DNA of 19,776 bases, taken from Coprinopsis marcescibilis. Its lineage: Eukaryota; Basidiomycota; Agaricomycetes; Agaricales; Psathyrellaceae. Shown here piece after piece: positions 1,519 to 16,133 of this stretch (position 1 is its first letter; each line of letters starts with the position of its first letter). The translations under genes and the position numbers were made by a program. The notes below the pieces were generated by a model. The model did not search any database. It had not been told where the DNA came from and saw only the letters and a program-made list of their open reading frames with translations. Where the stretch lies: assembly GCA_004369085.1 (NCBI GenBank), contig ML210417.1:6772-26547 (forward strand). The letters run 5' to 3'.

Positions 1519-1794
1519 TGTTGAAATCCAGAGAGTGCAGCAAATGTGCAGGCAAGCAGGAGGCCAATGTAAACGACTGGGTAGGACATATTTACCTGGT
1601 AGTAAGTAGTTAAGAGTTGCTTATATAGCTTAGCAGGTAGTAGTTGAGAGGCAAGAGAGATAATTCGTATAGGGCTAAACTACAGCCCTTATATACCTAT
1701 TCTACAAGCATATTAGTAAGCAAGTTACACGCTACATGTGATAAGTAAATATATAAATAGACATTGCTAGAATGTTCCAGCATAGTCTAGACTC

Positions 1795-1803
1795 AAGTAT
1801 GAG
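1795..1803. repeat. Target site duplication AAGTATGAG, left copy
   Basis: The nine bases just outside the left terminal inverted repeat are repeated exactly at 7634-7642 outside the right one. Removing the element and one copy restores a continuous LTR sequence that aligns with 819-1172. Confidence 0.92.
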
Positions 1804-1965
1804 CAGGCTCCTAAAACCAGCCGCTCGTCTGCTTGAGCCTTCAGGGACAGAGAGGAGTGATTCGGAATACGACACGGGAGCGGACAAAAATGTATAAACA
1901 ACATCATGATGGGACAAATAAAACTTAGGTCAAGGCTCTCGCAGAGAGCGGCTGGCAAAACTGGT
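1804..1965 (+). repeat. Left terminal inverted repeat
   Basis: The outermost 27 bp (start CAGGCTCCTAAAACC) are an exact inverted match to 7607-7633. Similarity resumes at 1902-1965, which matches 7473-7532 inverted (AACAAATAAAACTTA-type stretch and CGGCTGGCAAAACTGGT). The ten bases CCAGCCGCTC at 1817-1826 recur inverted at 1946-1955, so this end alone could form a stem about 110 nt apart, with a weaker second pairing at GAGCCTT/AAGGCTC. Confidence 0.88.
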
Positions 1966-2146
1966 TGCCAAAAGACTCCGAAATTCTCAGCCAAAGTCCT
2001 GGTTCTGCGCACTTTGAATATTCATTGATTTTATCACTTCGGCAGACGAAGGGCAAGTTGGCGTGACCAACGCGCGAGGCGCGTCGCGTCAGGTGAAATG
2101 CTTGTTTATTGGCCTATGTAGCACCATATTCGCCCCCACAACATCC

Positions 2147-4595
2147 ATGTCAGTCTCTACTACAGAATGGACATTCGAGAAAATTCGCGCACTAGGCCTT
2201 CGAGTCTTCAAGCGTCGTCTCTGCTATCCACAGCTCCAGATAATCCAGAATATCCAGAAAGGGTTAGACGTCATCGCATGTCTACCGACTGGAGCAGGCA
2301 AAACTCTCACCTTTTGGATGCCAGTGCTCATGGCAATAGAGGAGGGCTCCAAGGATGCGATGACATTTGTAATTACACCGCTTAATCTCCTTGGAAAGCA
2401 GAACGAGCAACAGCTCAAGGCTGCTAACATATCTGCAATCAGCATAAGTGCCGCAAACGTATCGGATGTTGTCCTGAAGGTACGTTACCTGCTCAAACAA
2501 TCATGGCTCTATTTTTGACTGCCAAACAGGATGTGGCCTCAGGAGTTTACAATGTGATCATAGTCAATCCCGAGATTCTCATGAGCCATCCTGGGTTTGA
2601 CAAGTTGTTAAGCGACCCCAAGTTCACATCAAGGATTCAGAACATCACCTTTGATGAAGGCCATTGTATCAGTCAGTGGGGCAAGTTTCGCAAGGATTAC
2701 CGTCAAGTGGGCTCGTTGCGCTTCAAGATACCCGAATCCATACCTTTCTACGTCGCCACAGCCACCCTCCCTCATGATATACTCTCAGACATCAAGATGA
2801 CACTTCGATTCCGACGCGACAAAACCGTTTGCATTCGGCGCTCCAATGACCGTCCGGACATTCAACTGATGGTTCGCCCACTTGTATACCCCATCAACTC
2901 CTTCAAAGATCTCGACTTTCTGCTCGATTTCTTCCCCAAAGACTGGAAGCCAGGGGACCAAGCCCCTCCCAAGTTCCTCATCTTTTTCGATGACACCAAG
3001 GAAGCAGAGCGTGCATGTCGTTACCTGAGCGCGCGTCTCGCAGACCGATTCAAGGACAAAGTCGCGTATTTCCACTCAACGATGTCGGATGTGTACCGCG
3101 ACGATCATTATCGCCTGTTCTTCAACTCCTTGGTGATAGGCATGTTCTGTACCGACGCATTCGGCATGGTAAGTGGTTTATATAATATATCTGGTCATTT
3201 CATTTTGACTAACTGTTAAATCAGGGAATGGACATACCAGACATCGACTTTGTGATACAATGGCGTGCACCGCGTGACATGTGCACGCTCTGGCAGCGAT
3301 TTGGTCGGGTAGCTCGAGGCAAGGACAGGACGGGGGTTGCAATCTTCCTTGTGGATAAGAAGGACACTGATGAGGCCAGGCACCTCAAGGAGCAAAAGCT
3401 GAATGAGAAGAAGAAGAAAGATGTCAAAGCTGGGGCAAAGCGAAAGGCGGCAGAACACGACCACTCCAGCTCACCAAGTAAGCGAGCCGCACTTGCCGAC
3501 CGAACTATCAACACAAACAACCAGCCCAACAACCCTCAACCACCTTGTATCGATGAATCAGATGCTGTTCTCATCGCAGAGCACACGGAGATGTACCGTA
3601 GGCAGGGGCTTGACAATCCACAGAACAAGCCAATCCGAGGGCAAAGCCGGACGGTTCAGTTGGGCAGTGCCTTGGATGACTTCATCAACAGCAAGACTCG
3701 AAATGAGTGTCGAAGAAAGTGGCCGAATGTGTACTTCCTCAACAATGACGCGCGTGAGTTCACCTCTGATCCATTCACAAGTTGACATCGATCTTACTCA
3801 CACGTGTGCTTCCAGACCAAAACGATCGCTTCTTGTGCGATTCCCAAGGCTGTGCCCGTTGCAAGCTGCTCCAACCCACTGTCTGCTGCGACGTCTGCCA
3901 TCCTGGCGAATTCACCCAGTATAGCGTCGAGTTCGTCAAGACCCCCAAAGCGACCGCCAGATCTTCCGTGAAGACCCTACCCATGGACGACCACGCAAAA
4001 GATCTCAAGCGAGCGCTTTATGTCTGGCGCAAGGACATCGCTCTGAAAATACATTCGCCAGGCATCATACGCGCTCACGGGAACAAGATTGTTATGACTG
4101 AAGACATACTCAACCGGATAATCGACTGCGCTCGGGCAAAGAAGCTGCCATCTGTGGAGGCCCTCAAGCTTGAAACCTCCTGGAGATATGCCGAGGAGCA
4201 CGGCGCTTCGCTTCTTGCCATTGTAGGGCGCTTTTACCCACCAGAGTCTGCAGTAGAGGAAGGAAAAGGGCGCAAGCGCGCGCAAGGCCGTTGCTCGCAA
4301 TGTGATCAAGTTGGCCATATCAGTGAGTATTTATTTGAGAATATACATGTTTTATTAACACAAACCAGGCTCCAACCGCAACTGTCCCAAACGCGCTCAG
4401 GCTCGGGCTGAACGCCACGCTCAAGAGAGCGAAAATGTTCCGCCAACCCCCACATCAACATCAACTGCCACCCCTATCCGTGTACCAACGGGCGCAGTGC
4501 CACATACACCCGCCGCATACCCGATTCCATTCGGTCATGCTTATTCGCCATACTACTGGAGTCCCGTTGCACCTCCATACGGCACACCTCGCTAA
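2147..4595 (+). CDS. RecQ-family DNA helicase encoded by the transposon
   Basis: ATP-dependent DNA helicase of superfamily 2. Exons are 2147-2479, 2530-3168, 3225-3753, 3816-4322 and 4369-4595; introns are 46-62 nt with GT...AG ends, giving 744 aa. The start is the ATG at 2147; an earlier in-frame codon at 2063 is GTG and unlikely in a eukaryote. Visible motifs: Walker A PTGAGKT (residues 47-53), DEGH followed by CISQWG (153-156, motif II typical of RecQ), ATATLP (187-192), CTDAFGMGMD (motif V, 318-327) and QRFGRVAR (motif VI, 348-355). A lysine-rich linker at 386-398 may be a nuclear signal. The Cys cluster C508, C513, C516, C524, C525, C528 resembles the RecQ zinc subdomain, displaced by about 100 residues. 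A knuckle-like C-X2-C-X4-H-X6-C lies at 660-675. The role is probably strand unwinding during transposition. Confidence 0.88.
4592..4595. other. Interlocked stop codons of the two transposon genes
   Basis: The four bases CTAA contain TAA for the + helicase (4593-4595) and TAG for the - transposase (4594-4592). Their coding regions overlap by 4 bp tail to tail, so each 3' UTR must lie within the coding region of the other gene. Confidence 0.85.
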
Positions 4596-7315
4596 AGGTT
4601 GAGGCTCCCATCGTCCACAACCTGTTCATCGCCATCGCCGCCGTCCTCTTCATCAGTTGCCATCGATTCATTTGCCCCGAGTAAAAGTGACCCTATACCC
4701 TTGGCTGCTGCATCGGGAACTCGATAACGAGTTACCCGTCCCTTCACCTTTTCCATGACACGGTTCTCGAGGATGTATGCGACAAGCTTTGCGAATGTCA
4801 GTTTCATGTTTGCCGGGCTGTGTCGTGTGGTTCTGTGATCCAGGCAGAACATGTCTTCAAATTGAATGCGAACATTTTTGTAGGTTTCGATGAGAGGGGA
4901 TTCCGTGATGATTCGGTCCTTGGTATGATTCGAAAATTTTCCCCCATAGATGCGCTTCGTGTAGAGGTTGTTGTGCTCTACAATCCAGTCGATTGCCCGA
5001 AAGTGACCCGGCTCACCACTGGGGTTACATAGAATGTTCATCCTGATCGCCCGACTGGTACAAAAAGTAAGTCCATGTTTAGTACTGCAAGCATTGCACT
5101 CACCTCAGTCCTTTTGGATAGATGAAATGCACGTTTTCCAGATACGTACGCATCTCTGCTGCGTACTTGTGCTTGCCACACCCTGCAAATATGTTCATCC
5201 AGGGAATGAAGCTTGCTTCGACTCGTCCAATGTCGCCATGATTCATTGCATACGATATCTCCTCGTACAGAAGAAAGTATTCGTGCTGTCGCAGGACGTT
5301 CCGGTGCTGCTCGTCTTCCTCTGCAATAGAGTCTTCAGGTAAGTTATTGTCATCCGGTTCCGGTATCCCAACGTGTGTCAGGACGATAGCCTTGGCCATT
5401 GCCTGCAGCGTCTCCCATTCGGGATTCGAGTTGGCGAACTGGTCGAGTGTCTGAGAGCTTGCATCCAGTGTTGGGCCCTCCTTGGCTGCTTCGAGTGTCC
5501 AGGCACTCAAACGCATCGCAATCCCGACGTGCTGAATCACCTCGTGCATTCGACGAAACCCGGGGTCCGATTCGATTTTCCCTGTCTCCTTTGGGCGAAT
5601 TTGAGCAACGAGCTTGATCAGGGATGAGTCGTCCTGTCGAGAAAGCTTTGGTCGGATAAAGAGGCGCCAAATCGCATCCGCACACGCCATTTTGAGGTGG
5701 AATAACCCAAGGACAAAGACCACGAACTGGAATCGGTTCCAGGGTGTCCCCTCCTGCGCTCGTGAGTCCTGAAGGCTATTGATGTGCTGTCCTGTCAGAA
5801 GGTCCCCAAAGACAAGGATTACCCGATTGAAAAGTTCTCTGAGGCGCTGGTCTTTTGCAGATTCGCCGACACCTGCTTGAAGAAAGAACGAGGTGAGTGC
5901 CGTTGCATTATTACTTGGTGTACTTGGGCTAATGTCGATTATACGCAGCGGGGTCTGAGTCGTCTTGGTAATGGGGATCTTTTCTACCTCTTCGGGTTGG
6001 CCATTCAGTGTCGAGAATCGTTGAAAGTAGTCAGGTCCATGATGGATGAGGTCGTCGAGTATCTTCCAAGCCATGAACCGTTGAGAACGGGTGAGGCCTG
6101 TGGGGTGAACTTTGTCTGGCTCCGCGTGAACGGTGTATAGGCATTCGAACGGTATCTCGGGGCGAGTGCAAGTGTTTGGATTGAGCTTCTTTGTGACTGG
6201 ATCTGGTCGGTTCGCCGGATTGTGCGGCGATGTCTTCCAAAGCTCTTTGGAACAGTCAAGGTCCTCTGAGGTGACACCGTGATTGAGTGGCAGCAGGGTT
6301 CCAGTAGTGAAGTGGTGAAGTGTCTCGTCAGACTGCTCAACGGTGGGTGTCCCATGCTTGAGTGTAACATCGAGGTTGTCGTACGCATACGAAACCATAA
6401 GTTGCTGACCGATTCGCCTTGCCTCTTCACCAGCTTCTTTGGACAGCGAGTTCACGGCTTCGTTTATTGACGTTGTCGAGATGGAGAGGCCAAACCTTGC
6501 AAGCAGCTCGCACACCGTTTCTGACGTGTTACACGAGTGCAAAAAAATACCCACAACAGATTGAAGGCTGTTACACCTTTGGCTAGCGTGGTTCATCATG
6601 ATGCTAGTGCATATCAACTTCTTCTGAAGACACAGTTTTGTTTAGCCTCGGAGATCCAACCCCAGATGAAGACACTCACAATTGTCACAAGACTGGACAG
6701 TTGAGTCTTGATTAATTCATCCAAGTCTTCTGGACTATCCTCTCCATTTTCCACTAATGAAACTTGATTTATATCAAAGTTCTCCCAGAATCCATCATCA
6801 TTTGGAGGGGAGCTGTCCTCTGGCCCGGTATCCATGCCCATGGTGCGAGCATCCGTTGTAGACTCTTCCCTCTTGAGTTTTCGGCGATCTCTTCGTTTAC
6901 TGTTGACGTCATTGGATAGAAAGAGACAGTCGAGAAGGTTCCAGACATCTGGTGCAGTGCTCTTCACCCGACTTGTGTGGTCCGTAATGCTGAAATTCTT
7001 GATTTGATCTTCTGACATGTGGCGTGCGTCGCCGTGAAATCCAGTACGTGGGTTGGTTAGCTGCTTCATTTGGTGCTTGTAAACGCTTTCGGAGAGTCCC
7101 ATGGCCCATTTTCTGACAAGATCGTACTGATCGTTGCCCTCTGGATCGGATATCTTCTCCAAGCAGTGCGGAAGGCTGGTCTTGAATGCAGCTGCGACAG
7201 GGTGAGCTGAGACCTTGGGCATACCGAGTGCCATAGTGAAAACTTCGGAAAGACTGATACCATGACTCTGAATTGAGTCAAGGATATACAACACAACGGT
7301 GCGTTTGGGAACCAT
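4592..7315 (-). CDS. Putative DDE transposase, DUF6589-like (Academ type)
   Basis: Exons on the - strand are 7315-6680, 6623-5104 and 5054-4592; introns of 56 and 49 nt begin GTGAGT and end CAG. The joined frame is 2,619 nt (872 aa) with no internal stop. The start is the first in-frame ATG after the terminal repeat. Features I associate with fungal DUF6589 are AYDNLD (D294), a VFGDLLTGQ block (D486), GLFHLKMACADAIW (about 518-531), AGCGKHKYAAEM (about 692-703) and a C-terminal NPSGEPGHF then DWIVEHNN (E745). I infer D294, D486 and E745 as the catalytic triad by position and context only. An acidic, unstructured stretch lies near residues 165-200. Presumed role: cutting and joining the transposon ends. 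It faces the helicase gene and ends within it. Confidence 0.8.
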
Positions 7316-7472
7316 TCGAATTGGATGTATGTTACACCGACTCGCCGTTATCGATACACGGGCAATAAATGAGCCCCTAACTCGGTTGGATTGCGCCGTT
7401 GATGGGTTATCATTTATTTGAAGGTGCGCAGGGCCGGCAGGATGGCAAGTTATTTCTCCGAGAATCGCGGTG

Positions 7473-7633
7473 ACCAGTTTTGCCAGCCGCTCTCTCGCGA
7501 GAGCCTTCCATAAGTTTTATTTGTTCCATCATCAAAGATTGATTTGTTTGTCTCCCTCTCTATGTCCTCACAGAAATCTCATACTCTGTCTTACGGCTCT
7601 CTAGCGAGACGAGCGGCTGGTTTTAGGAGCCTG
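7473..7633 (-). repeat. Right terminal inverted repeat
   Basis: Inverted partner of 1804-1965. The outer 27 bp are identical and the inner block 7473-7532 matches with few changes; the part between is diverged. GAGCGGCTGG at 7611-7620 and its inverse at 7483-7492 repeat the two-arm layout of the left end. The inner arm adjoins a perfect 12-bp palindrome CTCTCGCGAGAG (7492-7503). Confidence 0.88.
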
Positions 7634-7642
7634 AAGTATGAG
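7634..7642. repeat. Target site duplication AAGTATGAG, right copy
   Basis: Exact copy of 1795-1803, directly outside the right terminal repeat. The interrupted Copia LTR resumes here. Confidence 0.92.
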
Positions 7643-7771
7643 TTGGTATGAGTAATGATGATGCAAGTGGATGTGTCATGGTTTGTAATGCTTTAGTCAT
7701 GTATATGACATCAGCATATTCACTTAGTCACATATCTGACATAAGTGTAGTCAATCATTCTAAGTTCAACA

Positions 7772-7776
7772 CTGTC
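7772..7776. repeat. Target site duplication CTGTC, right copy (Copia solo LTR)
   Basis: Exact copy of 1514-1518, directly after the LTR terminus TTCAACA at 7771. Confidence 0.85.
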
Positions 7777-12063: not shown

Positions 12064-12880
12064 GCCCTGTTTCCTGTGGCTGATTGTTCATGCCTGATCT
12101 GGCTTATAGGATGTGTGTATTACACCTTGATGCCATATTCCTTCTTTGCTGATTTGCCATGCTTGTTCCACCTCACAGTTTGTGCATATTTGACCTCCAT
12201 GCCATATTCCTTCCTTGCTGATTCACCATGTTCTTTCCATCTCACAGATGGTACATATTTGACCTGGATGCCATATTCCTTCCTACTGAGTGGCCACACT
12301 TGCTCCATCTCATAGAGGGTACATATTTGACCTTGATGCCATATTCCTTCCTTGCTGATTTGCAATTGTTGTTCCATCCCATAGGATGTGCGTATTTGAC
12401 CTCCATGCATATTCCTTCTTTGCTGATTCACCATGCTTGTTCCACCTCACAGTTTGTGCGCATTTGACCTTAATGCCATATTCCTTTCTTGCTGATTCAC
12501 CACAATCATTCCATCTCATAGAAGGTACATATTTGACCTCAATGCTATATTCCATCCATGCTGATTTGCCACACTTGTTCCATCTCATAGCATGTGTGTA
12601 TTTGACCTTGATGCTATATTCCTTCCTTGCTGATTTGCCATGCTTGTTTCACCTCACAGTGGGTGCGTATTTGGCCTTGATGCCATATTTTTCTATGATA
12701 ATTTACCACACTCATTCCATCTCATAGAGGGTGTGTATTTGGCCTCCATGCCATATTCCTGCCTTGCTGATTTGCCATGCTTGTTCCATCTCATAGCTGG
12801 TGCATATTTGACCTCAATGCCATATTCCTTTTGTGCTAATTTGCCATGCTTGTTTCATCACATAGAGGGTGTGTATTGAT
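12064..12880. repeat. 69-bp minisatellite, about 11 copies
   Basis: The core GCCATATTCCTTCCTTGCTG starts at about 12132, 12201, 12270, 12338, 12407, 12475, 12544, 12613, 12682, 12750 and 12819, a period of 68-70 bp, mostly 69. Copies differ by scattered substitutions. Because 69 is a multiple of three, both strands show long open stretches (+ unit beginning MPYSFLAD, - unit containing VRWNKHGESAKKEYGI), but the 68- and 70-bp spacings break any single frame across the array. I treat it as a non-coding tandem repeat. Confidence 0.9.
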
Positions 12881-13407: not shown

Positions 13408-13672
13408 CAGGTACTTCGGTCAATAACTGCACTCTCGCAAATGCTCAGAATGGCCCCTGTAATCTGAGACGGTCTTGGTATTCGGATCGGACGCTGAGTG
13501 GGTTTCGGCGATCAGACTCGGGCTTCCTTGACGTTCTTTCACTTCACTTTCTTTCTGCTCGTTCACCGAGGTCCACTCTCTGCAGGTTCGACGATAGACA
13601 CTGGACCGACCGACACCACGAAACTAGAACGACCCATGGCTGAAAAGACTCCAGCCAAATCTCACGAGGACG

Positions 13673-16133
13673 ATGAGCGTGGAGAGCCCGCAGGTTCACC
13701 AGAACCGGACGAAAGCGCTCGTCCTCGCCGTCGTGCTCTCTCTGCTTACTCTCTACACCAACACCACCACCGACCACTACGAGGGACCTGCATTTGAGTA
13801 CAACATCACCAATCCTCTACCGCAAGGCAGCTACGCGCTGTGCTCGGCGGAAGGAGTTGCGAGGGGCGTGTACACTGTTGATGCGACGGATGGCGTCGTG
13901 GAGTGCGTGTTGGTTGTTGACGAGTGGGTCAAGGGTACTGGCTATTTGGGTGAGGTTCCAGTGTGCTTGTGAATGCGGACGAATGCTAATGTGCATGGCG
14001 TGTTGGTGTAGGTGAGGTGAAGGAGGCCTGGAAAGGGATTGGGGCCTCGGACTTGCTGCCAGTCGTACGCGTCCCACAAGGCGCCGTCGTCGTACCTGGC
14101 TTTGCGGATTCTCATTGCCATATATTGGAATATGGGTTCAGCAAGCAGATCCCGCTCGGGGGACTCAGGACTATCAAAGGTATCCTCGTGCCGTCCTTTC
14201 TCTACGCACTGACTTACATGCGTTGTAGAAAGTGTGGAAGCCGTGGCGCATTACGTGCAGTCCAACCCGGATATCCTCGCTGATGAAGGTGGGATTGTGG
14301 AAGGGTGGGGATGGGACCATAAGACGTTTGAGGGCGGCAAGATGCCTACTGCTGTGTGTATCTCATTATGCAATGTCTATTCCCCCCTACTACTCTTATT
14401 CGTACTGGCATTAACTAACTATCGCATTGTTCCCCCCACAGTCGGATCTCTCCTCGCACCCGGTCCTCGCCAACCGCCAAATCATACTGTTAAGCAAGGA
14501 CACGCAACTTGGGTCTCGCAGGCTACGTTGGATACGAATGGGCCTTACCCGGCTGACGTGGATGGGGGTGTTATCATGCGGGATGTGCAGGGAAATGTTA
14601 CAGGTGTGTTATTAGTTCTATTCTCTGCGTTATACGTTCTGGTGTCTGCTATACGTTCTACGTTGTGCGCTATCCCCTTATTTTCTCGCCCCCAGTCTTA
14701 CCTCTCACTCACTCATCTGTGCATCCATTAACTGACGCACTTGTAACACCCTGCAGGCGTATTCATTGACACGGCGATGACGCTGATCAGGCCACCCGTT
14801 ATCACCCCCCAGATGCAGCACCGGCGGTTCACGAACACCGCACGCGACGCGCTCAGCTTCGGGTTGACGAGTTTGCACGATGCGGGGTTTAACCCTACTT
14901 CATTGGATTTCTTTACTAGGTGCGTTCCGGCTTTGCTTTCGTGCTTGAGGTCGGCTTGGGTTGGATTTGTGGTCGAGCGTTTGGGTCGAGGGTTGGTTGA
15001 GGATAGTACCTCTCGGCTTCGTTCGCTACGTCTTGCGGAGGTCTAGGGTTCACGGTAACTCGCCTGGCGTTCCGATATCCTTCTCTTCTGCACTCCCTTT
15101 CCCGTTTTCCGTTTCCTGCATTCCGTTTTCCGTTTTCTGCTATCCGCATCGCCAATATCGCTCCCCCTTAGACAATCCAAACGCCATGCCGGCCTCCCAC
15201 TACGGATCTATGGCATATCCTTCTTCAACGTCTTCGCCATCGACGTCCACTCCCTCCTCCTCGTCCAACGACGCCTATTGGGGCTCCACACACCGGAATG
15301 TCGACGATATGGAGTGCGCAGCATCAATATTTTTGCGGATGGGGCGTTGAGGACTATGGGTGCTGCTGTGAGGCGGTGTGGTCCCTGCCGATGCAAGGCA
15401 CCTATCTAACTGATCTATGGACAGTTGTATGAACCTTATGCGGATGACCCAAGTACGTCGGGGAGCATGCGTCTTTCGGGGAGGTTCTTAATGCGATCGT
15501 GCCACGCTTTTTGGAGGATGGCTGGCAAGTGGTGAGTCCATCTTTATGTTTATGTTTTTGTCTACGTTTGCGTTCATTCGGTGTTCCTTTGTGATTGGTC
15601 TCTTTGGGTACAGTCGATGGTCCGAGTTCTCGTGGATTCGCTTGTCCGCTCGTTCGTGTGACGTCATTGTCACGTGTTGATTGGGGTCGGGGTCGGGGTC
15701 AGGGAACTTTCGCTTCTGAACCAGCTCTCGCTGCTCCGACTGCTGCTCTCCTGCTCCTGATAGAACCACCTACTCTTGCTCTGGTGGTCCTTTATTGCTG
15801 CCCCAGACTCGAGACCTTCATCTTCCCTCCCCCTTCGACCGTTCGGTCCGTACCTCGTTTCGGGCCCCACCCCATATCTCTCTTCTTTCTCATCCACTCA
15901 CAACCCAATCTTCCTTCAAGTCTCCCAATTTTTCTCCTCTCTTCCACTTCCTCCTCCTTTATGACCCTTTCAACCATGCTTACGCTTCGAACCAACTGTC
16001 TTTCTCTCCCTCCCTCTTATTTCTAGAACGTGCACGCAATCGGCGACCGCGCCAACGGCCTTGTGCGAGACGCGTTCGAACTCGCGCTGCGCAACCTCGG
16101 GCTCGCCGACTTCAACGACTTCAACGACGTCGT
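13673..16133 (+). pseudogene. Amidohydrolase family 3 (YtcJ-like) gene, decayed and C-terminally truncated
   Basis: Metal-dependent hydrolase of the amidohydrolase-3 family. Exons: 13673-13949, 14012-14179, 14229-14353, 14442-14603, 14757-14919, 15172-15367, 15425-15531, 16027-about 16133. After a short basic N-terminus comes one hydrophobic anchor (about residues 15-27). Family marks: PGFADSHCH (metal HxH), GWGWDH, LTSLHDAGF, LPLRIYG, FADGALRTMGAALYEPYADDP and VNVHAIGDRANG. Decay: exon 4 shifts frame near 14500 (a 4-bp loss of one GGAC would explain it); exon 7 lacks one G near 15478; exon 6 probably has compensating shifts; the usual Lys in the V-K-I-F-A-D-G block is Asn. The protein stops after HAIGDRANG, and the expected C-terminal third (EHAQ and SDWP-type motifs) is not found downstream. 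The start is uncertain: ATG 13636 in another frame begins MAEKTPAKS, also plausible. Confidence 0.8.
15532..16026 (+). other. Oversized, pyrimidine-rich intron of the amidohydrolase gene
   Basis: The segment between GWQV and NVHAIGDR has a canonical donor (GTGAGT) and acceptor (TTTCTAG) but is 495 nt, against about 50-250 nt for the others. Its last 220 bases are strongly C/T-rich on the + strand. An insertion into a once-short intron is possible. Confidence 0.6.

Follow-up and report, generated by a model that had tools for sequence, protein, structure and literature searches.

A probable AcademH transposon of Coprinopsis marcescibilis pairs a DUF6589 protein with a RecQ-type helicase

Many families of transposase need no helicase for movement. 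Elements of the hAT and P types, which leave 8-bp target duplications, are not known to carry one, and Kolobok elements target TTAA. The AcademH lineage of Academ DNA transposons was reportedly named by Kojima in 2020 (Mob DNA 11:15). Here we analyzed a 19,776-nt stretch of DNA from Coprinopsis marcescibilis (assembly GCA_004369085.1, 36.3 Mb; contig ML210417.1, positions 6,772 to 26,547, forward strand), which we call the window. It holds a DNA transposon of 5,830 bp (window 1804–7633). This is very probably a complete, autonomous-looking cut-and-paste element of AcademH type, and its DUF6589 protein a DDE transposase.

AcademH elements are described as having a helicase and target duplications of 9 or 10 bp, and AcademX elements, of the same superfamily by report, as having a nuclease in place of the helicase and duplications of 3–4 bp; it was suggested that duplication length tracks whether the accessory enzyme is a helicase or a nuclease (PMC10045372). 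AcademH is given as low-copy in Basidiomycota, and helicase domains of AcademH, KolobokH or Helitron type as widespread in fungal proteomes (PMC10799480). Helicases are also reported as the commonest transposon-derived domains in fungal fusion genes (PMC10045372, PMC10799480, PMC12210899, PMC9587614, PMC12730594, PMC8290104). KolobokH of fungi combines a DDD/E transposase with a RecQ helicase, which lies downstream of the transposase domain (PMC9587614), and Kyakuja-Dileera-Zisupton elements make target duplications of 7–8 bp (PMC12730594).

By these descriptions, the element in the window is like AcademH in its helicase beside a transposase, its 9-bp duplication, its terminal inverted repeats and its low copy number, and no difference was found. 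Both AcademH marks, the helicase and a duplication of 9 or 10 bp, are present, and the AcademH lead, which the original prediction had given, stands. AcademX differs by its nuclease and shorter duplication. KolobokH shares the pairing of a DDD/E transposase with a RecQ helicase but has the arrangement described above and targets TTAA, whereas here the two genes are separate, lie on opposite strands and go with a 9-bp duplication. The prediction had also held a helicase to be unusual in a cut-and-paste transposon; the helicase is there, but helicase-bearing AcademH and fungal KolobokH elements were known already. AcademH is thus not a new kind, and the present copy adds another member to it. 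The features of the element are as follows; residue numbers refer to the 872-amino-acid transposase.

1795–1803, left 9-bp target duplication, AAGTATGAG; 32 empty places have exactly nine bases in common here
1804–1830, plus strand, left terminal inverted repeat, 27 bp, starting CAGGCTCCTAAAACCAGCCGCTCG; 27/27 complementary to the right end
1817–1841, plus strand, outer arm of the left-end foldback (foldback analysis)
1932–1955, minus strand, inner arm of the left-end foldback, an inverted copy of the end motif (foldback analysis and inner-motif scan)
2147–2479, plus strand, helicase exon 1, Walker A region (hand-made gene model)
2530–3168, plus strand, helicase exon 2, DEGH box (hand-made gene model)
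3225–3753, plus strand, helicase exon 3, motif VI (hand-made gene model)
3816–4322, plus strand, helicase exon 4 (hand-made gene model)
4369–4595, plus strand, helicase exon 5 (hand-made gene model)
4592–5054, minus strand, transposase exon 3 (hand-made gene model)
5104–6623, minus strand, transposase exon 2, with candidate catalytic residues D294 (6378–6380), D486 (5802–5804) and E666/E667 (5259–5264) (gene model, structure model and residue conservation)
6680–7315, minus strand, transposase exon 1 (hand-made gene model)
7483–7505, plus strand, inner arm of the right-end foldback (foldback analysis and inner-motif scan)
7595–7620, minus strand, outer arm of the right-end foldback (foldback analysis)
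7607–7633, minus strand, right terminal inverted repeat, 27 bp; 27/27 complementary to the left end
7634–7642, right 9-bp target duplication, AAGTATGAG, identical to 1795–1803

The element is surrounded by a dispersed repeat (window about 1519–1803 and 7634–7775) with about 40 matches in the genome. The left flank had 42 genome matches and the right flank 43, the window's own included in each; 34 of the 42 and 35 of the 43 entered the comparison with empty sites, the remainder being short of the junction or the window's own. Apart from the window, 33 copies of the repeat matched the left flank up to the junction, and 32 of these continued into the right flank without the element. The exceptional place was C362, where the left-flank match was not continued into the right flank. 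In all 32 empty places the left- and right-flank matches overlapped by exactly nine bases, as expected if insertion had duplicated nine bases; three of them (C15, C205 and one upstream in C272) were displayed base by base. This result proves the boundaries of the element. The perfect inverted ends and the identical 9-bp flanks bear out the exact borders that had been claimed, and a chance match as the explanation of the ends was ruled out by the empty sites together with other copies having the same ends. Since the empty copies were up to 94% identical to the flanks over about 285 bases, the insertion postdates the spread of the repeat. The element is complete and probably young. Copies of this dispersed repeat are present, too, no more than about 2 kb away from the DUF6589/helicase loci of C15 and C205.

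Two intact, multi-exon, convergent genes had been predicted, and both are real. The gene models were made by hand from sequence alone. The helicase gene (plus strand, five exons, 744 amino acids) and the transposase gene (minus strand, three exons, 872 amino acids, as in the prediction) are open from end to end, all six introns are of the GT-AG type, and the stop codons overlap tail to tail. A public helicase model, P0045 (684 amino acids), is 99% identical over 92% of the helicase; a public transposase model, P0001 (714 amino acids), is 100% identical over 82% and is without the first 158 residues of our model.

Pfam found DEAD (1.6e-22) and Helicase_C (5.9e-15) in the helicase at residues 29–356. 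When solved structures were ranked, WRN, RecQ, RECQ5, RECQ1 and BLM came top at 2e-31 to 3e-21, and RECQ4 scored 1.8e-13, whereas the best RNA helicase reached 1.7e-11, among 60 of 120 matches listed. By this ranking the helicase core is nearer to the RecQ family than to other DExD/H helicases, in agreement with the RecQ call made before. A zinc-knuckle-like stretch spans the junction of exons 4 and 5 (Pfam zf-CCHC_6, E-value 0.086, under its cut-off). Among 120 related helicases, some of them partial models, the Walker A pattern was present in 107 and motif VI in 106; a crude pattern for RecQ zinc binding was present in three. The first Walker B-like box in these relatives (P0045–P0164) reads DEGH in 50/120 and DEAH in 56/120, and the DEGH form, which the present helicase has, might mark a transposon-type subgroup.

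The large protein matched Pfam PF20231 (DUF6589), a family entry without a function, at residues 389–797 with an E-value of 2.5e-101 (339.8 bits vs a cut-off of 27), as had been foreseen. The match does not extend to D294, the first of the candidate catalytic residues. No other transposase family was found in the Pfam search at an E-value of 1 or better. The structure model of the protein (predicted local distance difference test score, pLDDT, 88) appears RNase H-like in the order of its elements, into which a helical stretch is inserted. The best Foldseek matches were Hermes and then the P element, with IS256-type transposases also present; these matches were weak, with E-values above 0.001. 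D294 and D486 were conserved in the transposase alignment, and E666 or E667 is a candidate for the third acid. When compared with PDB sequences, the profile of this alignment gave no transposase, the one row returned (E-value 0.8) being a designed coiled coil. In resembling DDE transposases, the model does not point to a family lacking a nuclease fold, which would have spoken against the prediction. A literature search on DUF6589 and PF20231, whose coverage left out most subscription journals, identified no relevant paper. The identification of DUF6589 with a transposase core may therefore be new to the literature, though it could already be in Repbase or in the founding paper on AcademH. One DUF6589 protein of Ganoderma boninense (P0243) is named 'ATP-dependent RNA helicase CshA' in the database, possibly through a mix-up with a neighbouring helicase.

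Further copies with the same ends had been anticipated. The end motif, with up to three mismatches, occurred at 25 places in the genome (6 and 19 in two scans; 2 and 1 in the backward control). Fourteen of these ends form seven same-contig pairs (C272, C65, C105, C54, C25, C141 and C187), each with an exact 9-bp duplication of varied sequence. Two more, one at C214 and one at C379, are close to contig edges and both have CTAAACTAC, so they are probably one element split by assembly; nine ends were left unpaired. The duplication was 9 bp in all nine elements examined, of which C214/C379 and C140 were recognised partly through it. Four ends reading CAGGCTCCTAAACCAGCCGCTCGTTCTCGCA (C19, C70, C214 and C379) lie about 270–320 bases from contig edges, as if a near-identical multi-copy element had broken the assembly.

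The copy at C105 (19755–20956) is a 1.2-kb derivative with an internal deletion, which keeps 454 bases at one end and 747 at the other. It differs from window 1804–7633 at 60 of 1,201 aligned bases; 51 of the differences are transitions, 37 of them at a CpG of either copy, a pattern that suggests methylation-driven decay. C187 is an element of 871 bp with ends identical over the 191 bases read, and the element at C65 is nominally 2.9 kb, of which 2,187 bases are N. These short copies are consistent with the ends sufficing in cis. A second two-gene element, at C140 (31578–37121), has its own ends and 9-bp duplication; its longest matches to the window element are 37% identical for the transposase and 35% for the helicase, and the helicase match crosses stops, which could be due to introns or decay. 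Its ends were found by a relaxed scan and missed by the stricter search that found C65; the relaxed scan gave no ends at C336, C205, C15, C155 or C282. An AcademH-type end pair 6.3 kb apart with an exact 9-bp duplication (G000:C54:95034-101345) had no DUF6589 or helicase match in the genome searches. An uninterrupted frame of 299 amino acids at C54 96800–97700 (L084, 901 bases read) had no Pfam match at an E-value of 0.1; we take it to resemble mushroom retroelement proteins, as cargo or a nested insertion.

The two genes also go together elsewhere. DUF6589 occurs on 10 contigs of the C. marcescibilis genome, and we inspected eight loci (C407 and C323 left aside; the window pair counted from our own models). 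At seven of the eight, a helicase match was present no more than 1.4 kb from the transposase match; six pairs are convergent and that at C336 is back to back. Among public proteins, at least 20 of 75 named transposases, from 16 species, share a contig with a listed helicase of the same species. Contig sharing was judged from equal longest-contig size within one species; of 133 transposases, 58 lacked an organism name or a contig and were left out, as was 1 of 120 helicases. The figure is a lower bound because 120 of 3,281 helicases and 120 of 336 transposases from one search were listed. Several pairs have neighbouring locus tags (H0H92_004012/004013, ONZ45_g7144/g7145, BN946_scf184690.g3/.g2, HWV62_34597/34599, EVJ58_g6060/g6058 and EW146_g2697/g2695). 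Taken together, the contigs of the 20 pairs make up 0.36 of a genome assumed to be 40 Mb, so that one helicase per genome would give far fewer than 20 coincidences. This estimate is weaker for some pairs, because several helicases are listed per species and some contigs reach megabase size; one such pair, that of Amanita muscaria, lies on a 4.6-Mb contig, and its helicase also sits elsewhere in the tree. A contig-shuffle control drew only contigs bearing these genes (mean 28.9, maximum 37 vs 20 seen); it was ill posed and not used, and neither supports nor refutes the pairing. Trees of the 20 paired helicases and transposases had 8 of 17 bipartitions in common vs 0.24 expected under permuted labels, and in both trees the four Pholiota molesta pairs grouped alike, beside the same partners; the other nine bipartitions differed. 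Species descent contributes part of this agreement and is included in the 8/17.

About 130–140 bp inward, each end of the element repeats its motif in inverted orientation. Single-strand foldback of the two ends gave z-scores of −2.7 and −4.3. With one mismatch allowed, the inner motif GAGCGGCTGGCAA was present in 10 of 12 ends and was not found in the right end of C65 (64 Ns in the 190 bases read) or in C289. Differences of C105 within the foldback arms resemble CpG decay. No compensatory changes in the arms were noticed by eye, with no formal covariation count made, so that the inner motif is explained equally well by a hairpin foldback and by a second, inverted site for binding the transposase. 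In the mechanism that we propose, the DUF6589 transposase would bind the 27-bp ends, and probably also the inner copies, excise the element and join its ends to target strands staggered by nine bases; host repair would then fill the stagger, leaving the 9-bp duplication. The RecQ-type helicase, encoded in the same unit, would most likely aid the transposase by unwinding the ends or the target, or by clearing the joined intermediate. We infer catalysis, the third acidic residue, present-day activity and every helicase step.

It is possible, if somewhat short of probable, that the RecQ-type helicase and the DUF6589 protein, as a DDE transposase core, have stayed together through agaricomycete evolution as a two-protein machine for transposition. 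The helicase would then take a direct part by melting the target or the palindromic ends, and would be linked to the long 9-bp stagger. The C174 locus, near a contig start, has DUF6589 with no helicase match. It would fit a passenger helicase, a host-derived RecQ gene hitch-hiking in a true element and dispensable for movement, as would the 55 of 75 named transposases with no same-contig helicase among those listed and the many transposase families that need none. We nevertheless think a passenger rather unlikely: pairing at seven of eight loci in one genome is not expected of a dispensable, swapped gene, the trees agree above permuted labels over 16 species, and the helicase motifs are kept in most relatives, partial models included.

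Membership of another superfamily resembling AcademH (KolobokH, hAT, P or Kyakuja-Dileera-Zisupton) would accord with the RecQ helicase that KolobokH likewise has (PMC9587614). It would also accord with the nearest structural matches, Hermes of hAT and the P element, whose RNase H-like cores are split by a helical insertion, as that of the model appears to be. Such membership is very improbable, as the 9 bp seen in nine elements contrasts with the TTAA of Kolobok, the 7–8 bp of Kyakuja-Dileera-Zisupton and the 8 bp of hAT and P elements, these last also not being known to have a helicase; moreover, the helicase is a separate convergent gene, unlike that of KolobokH, and Pfam gave no rival transposase family at an E-value of 1 or better. 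A decayed or immobile relic, its genes retained for a host function, is improbable too. Only a single copy with a full transposase of this family was found in the genome, and its nearest relative, C105, is internally deleted with CpG transitions as in methylated, silenced DNA; yet both genes and both ends of the window element are intact, its duplication is perfect and its insertion is later than the spread of the repeat.

An intact AcademH-type element with ends proven by empty sites and both genes complete is a starting point for a transposition assay, and sharpens the question of why a cut-and-paste transposon has a helicase. It is also a reason for renaming DUF6589 as a transposase core and for counting adjoining RecQ-like genes among the genes of transposons; annotations of mushroom genomes would become cleaner as a result.

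At C174 (L060, about 1579–3846), a long inverted duplication of the DUF6589 stretch is centred near 2712 and is either a real palindrome or an assembly artefact. Elsewhere in the window, a 69-bp unit is repeated in tandem about 10.9 times at 12124–12877 (higher periods of 137 and 206 bp); open frames over this array are probably due to chance. Exon-like open frames also lie outside the element at 13628–14731. The two frames scanned there had no Pfam match above the cut-off, and the stretch VEGWGWDHKTF presumably resembles YtcJ-type amidohydrolases.
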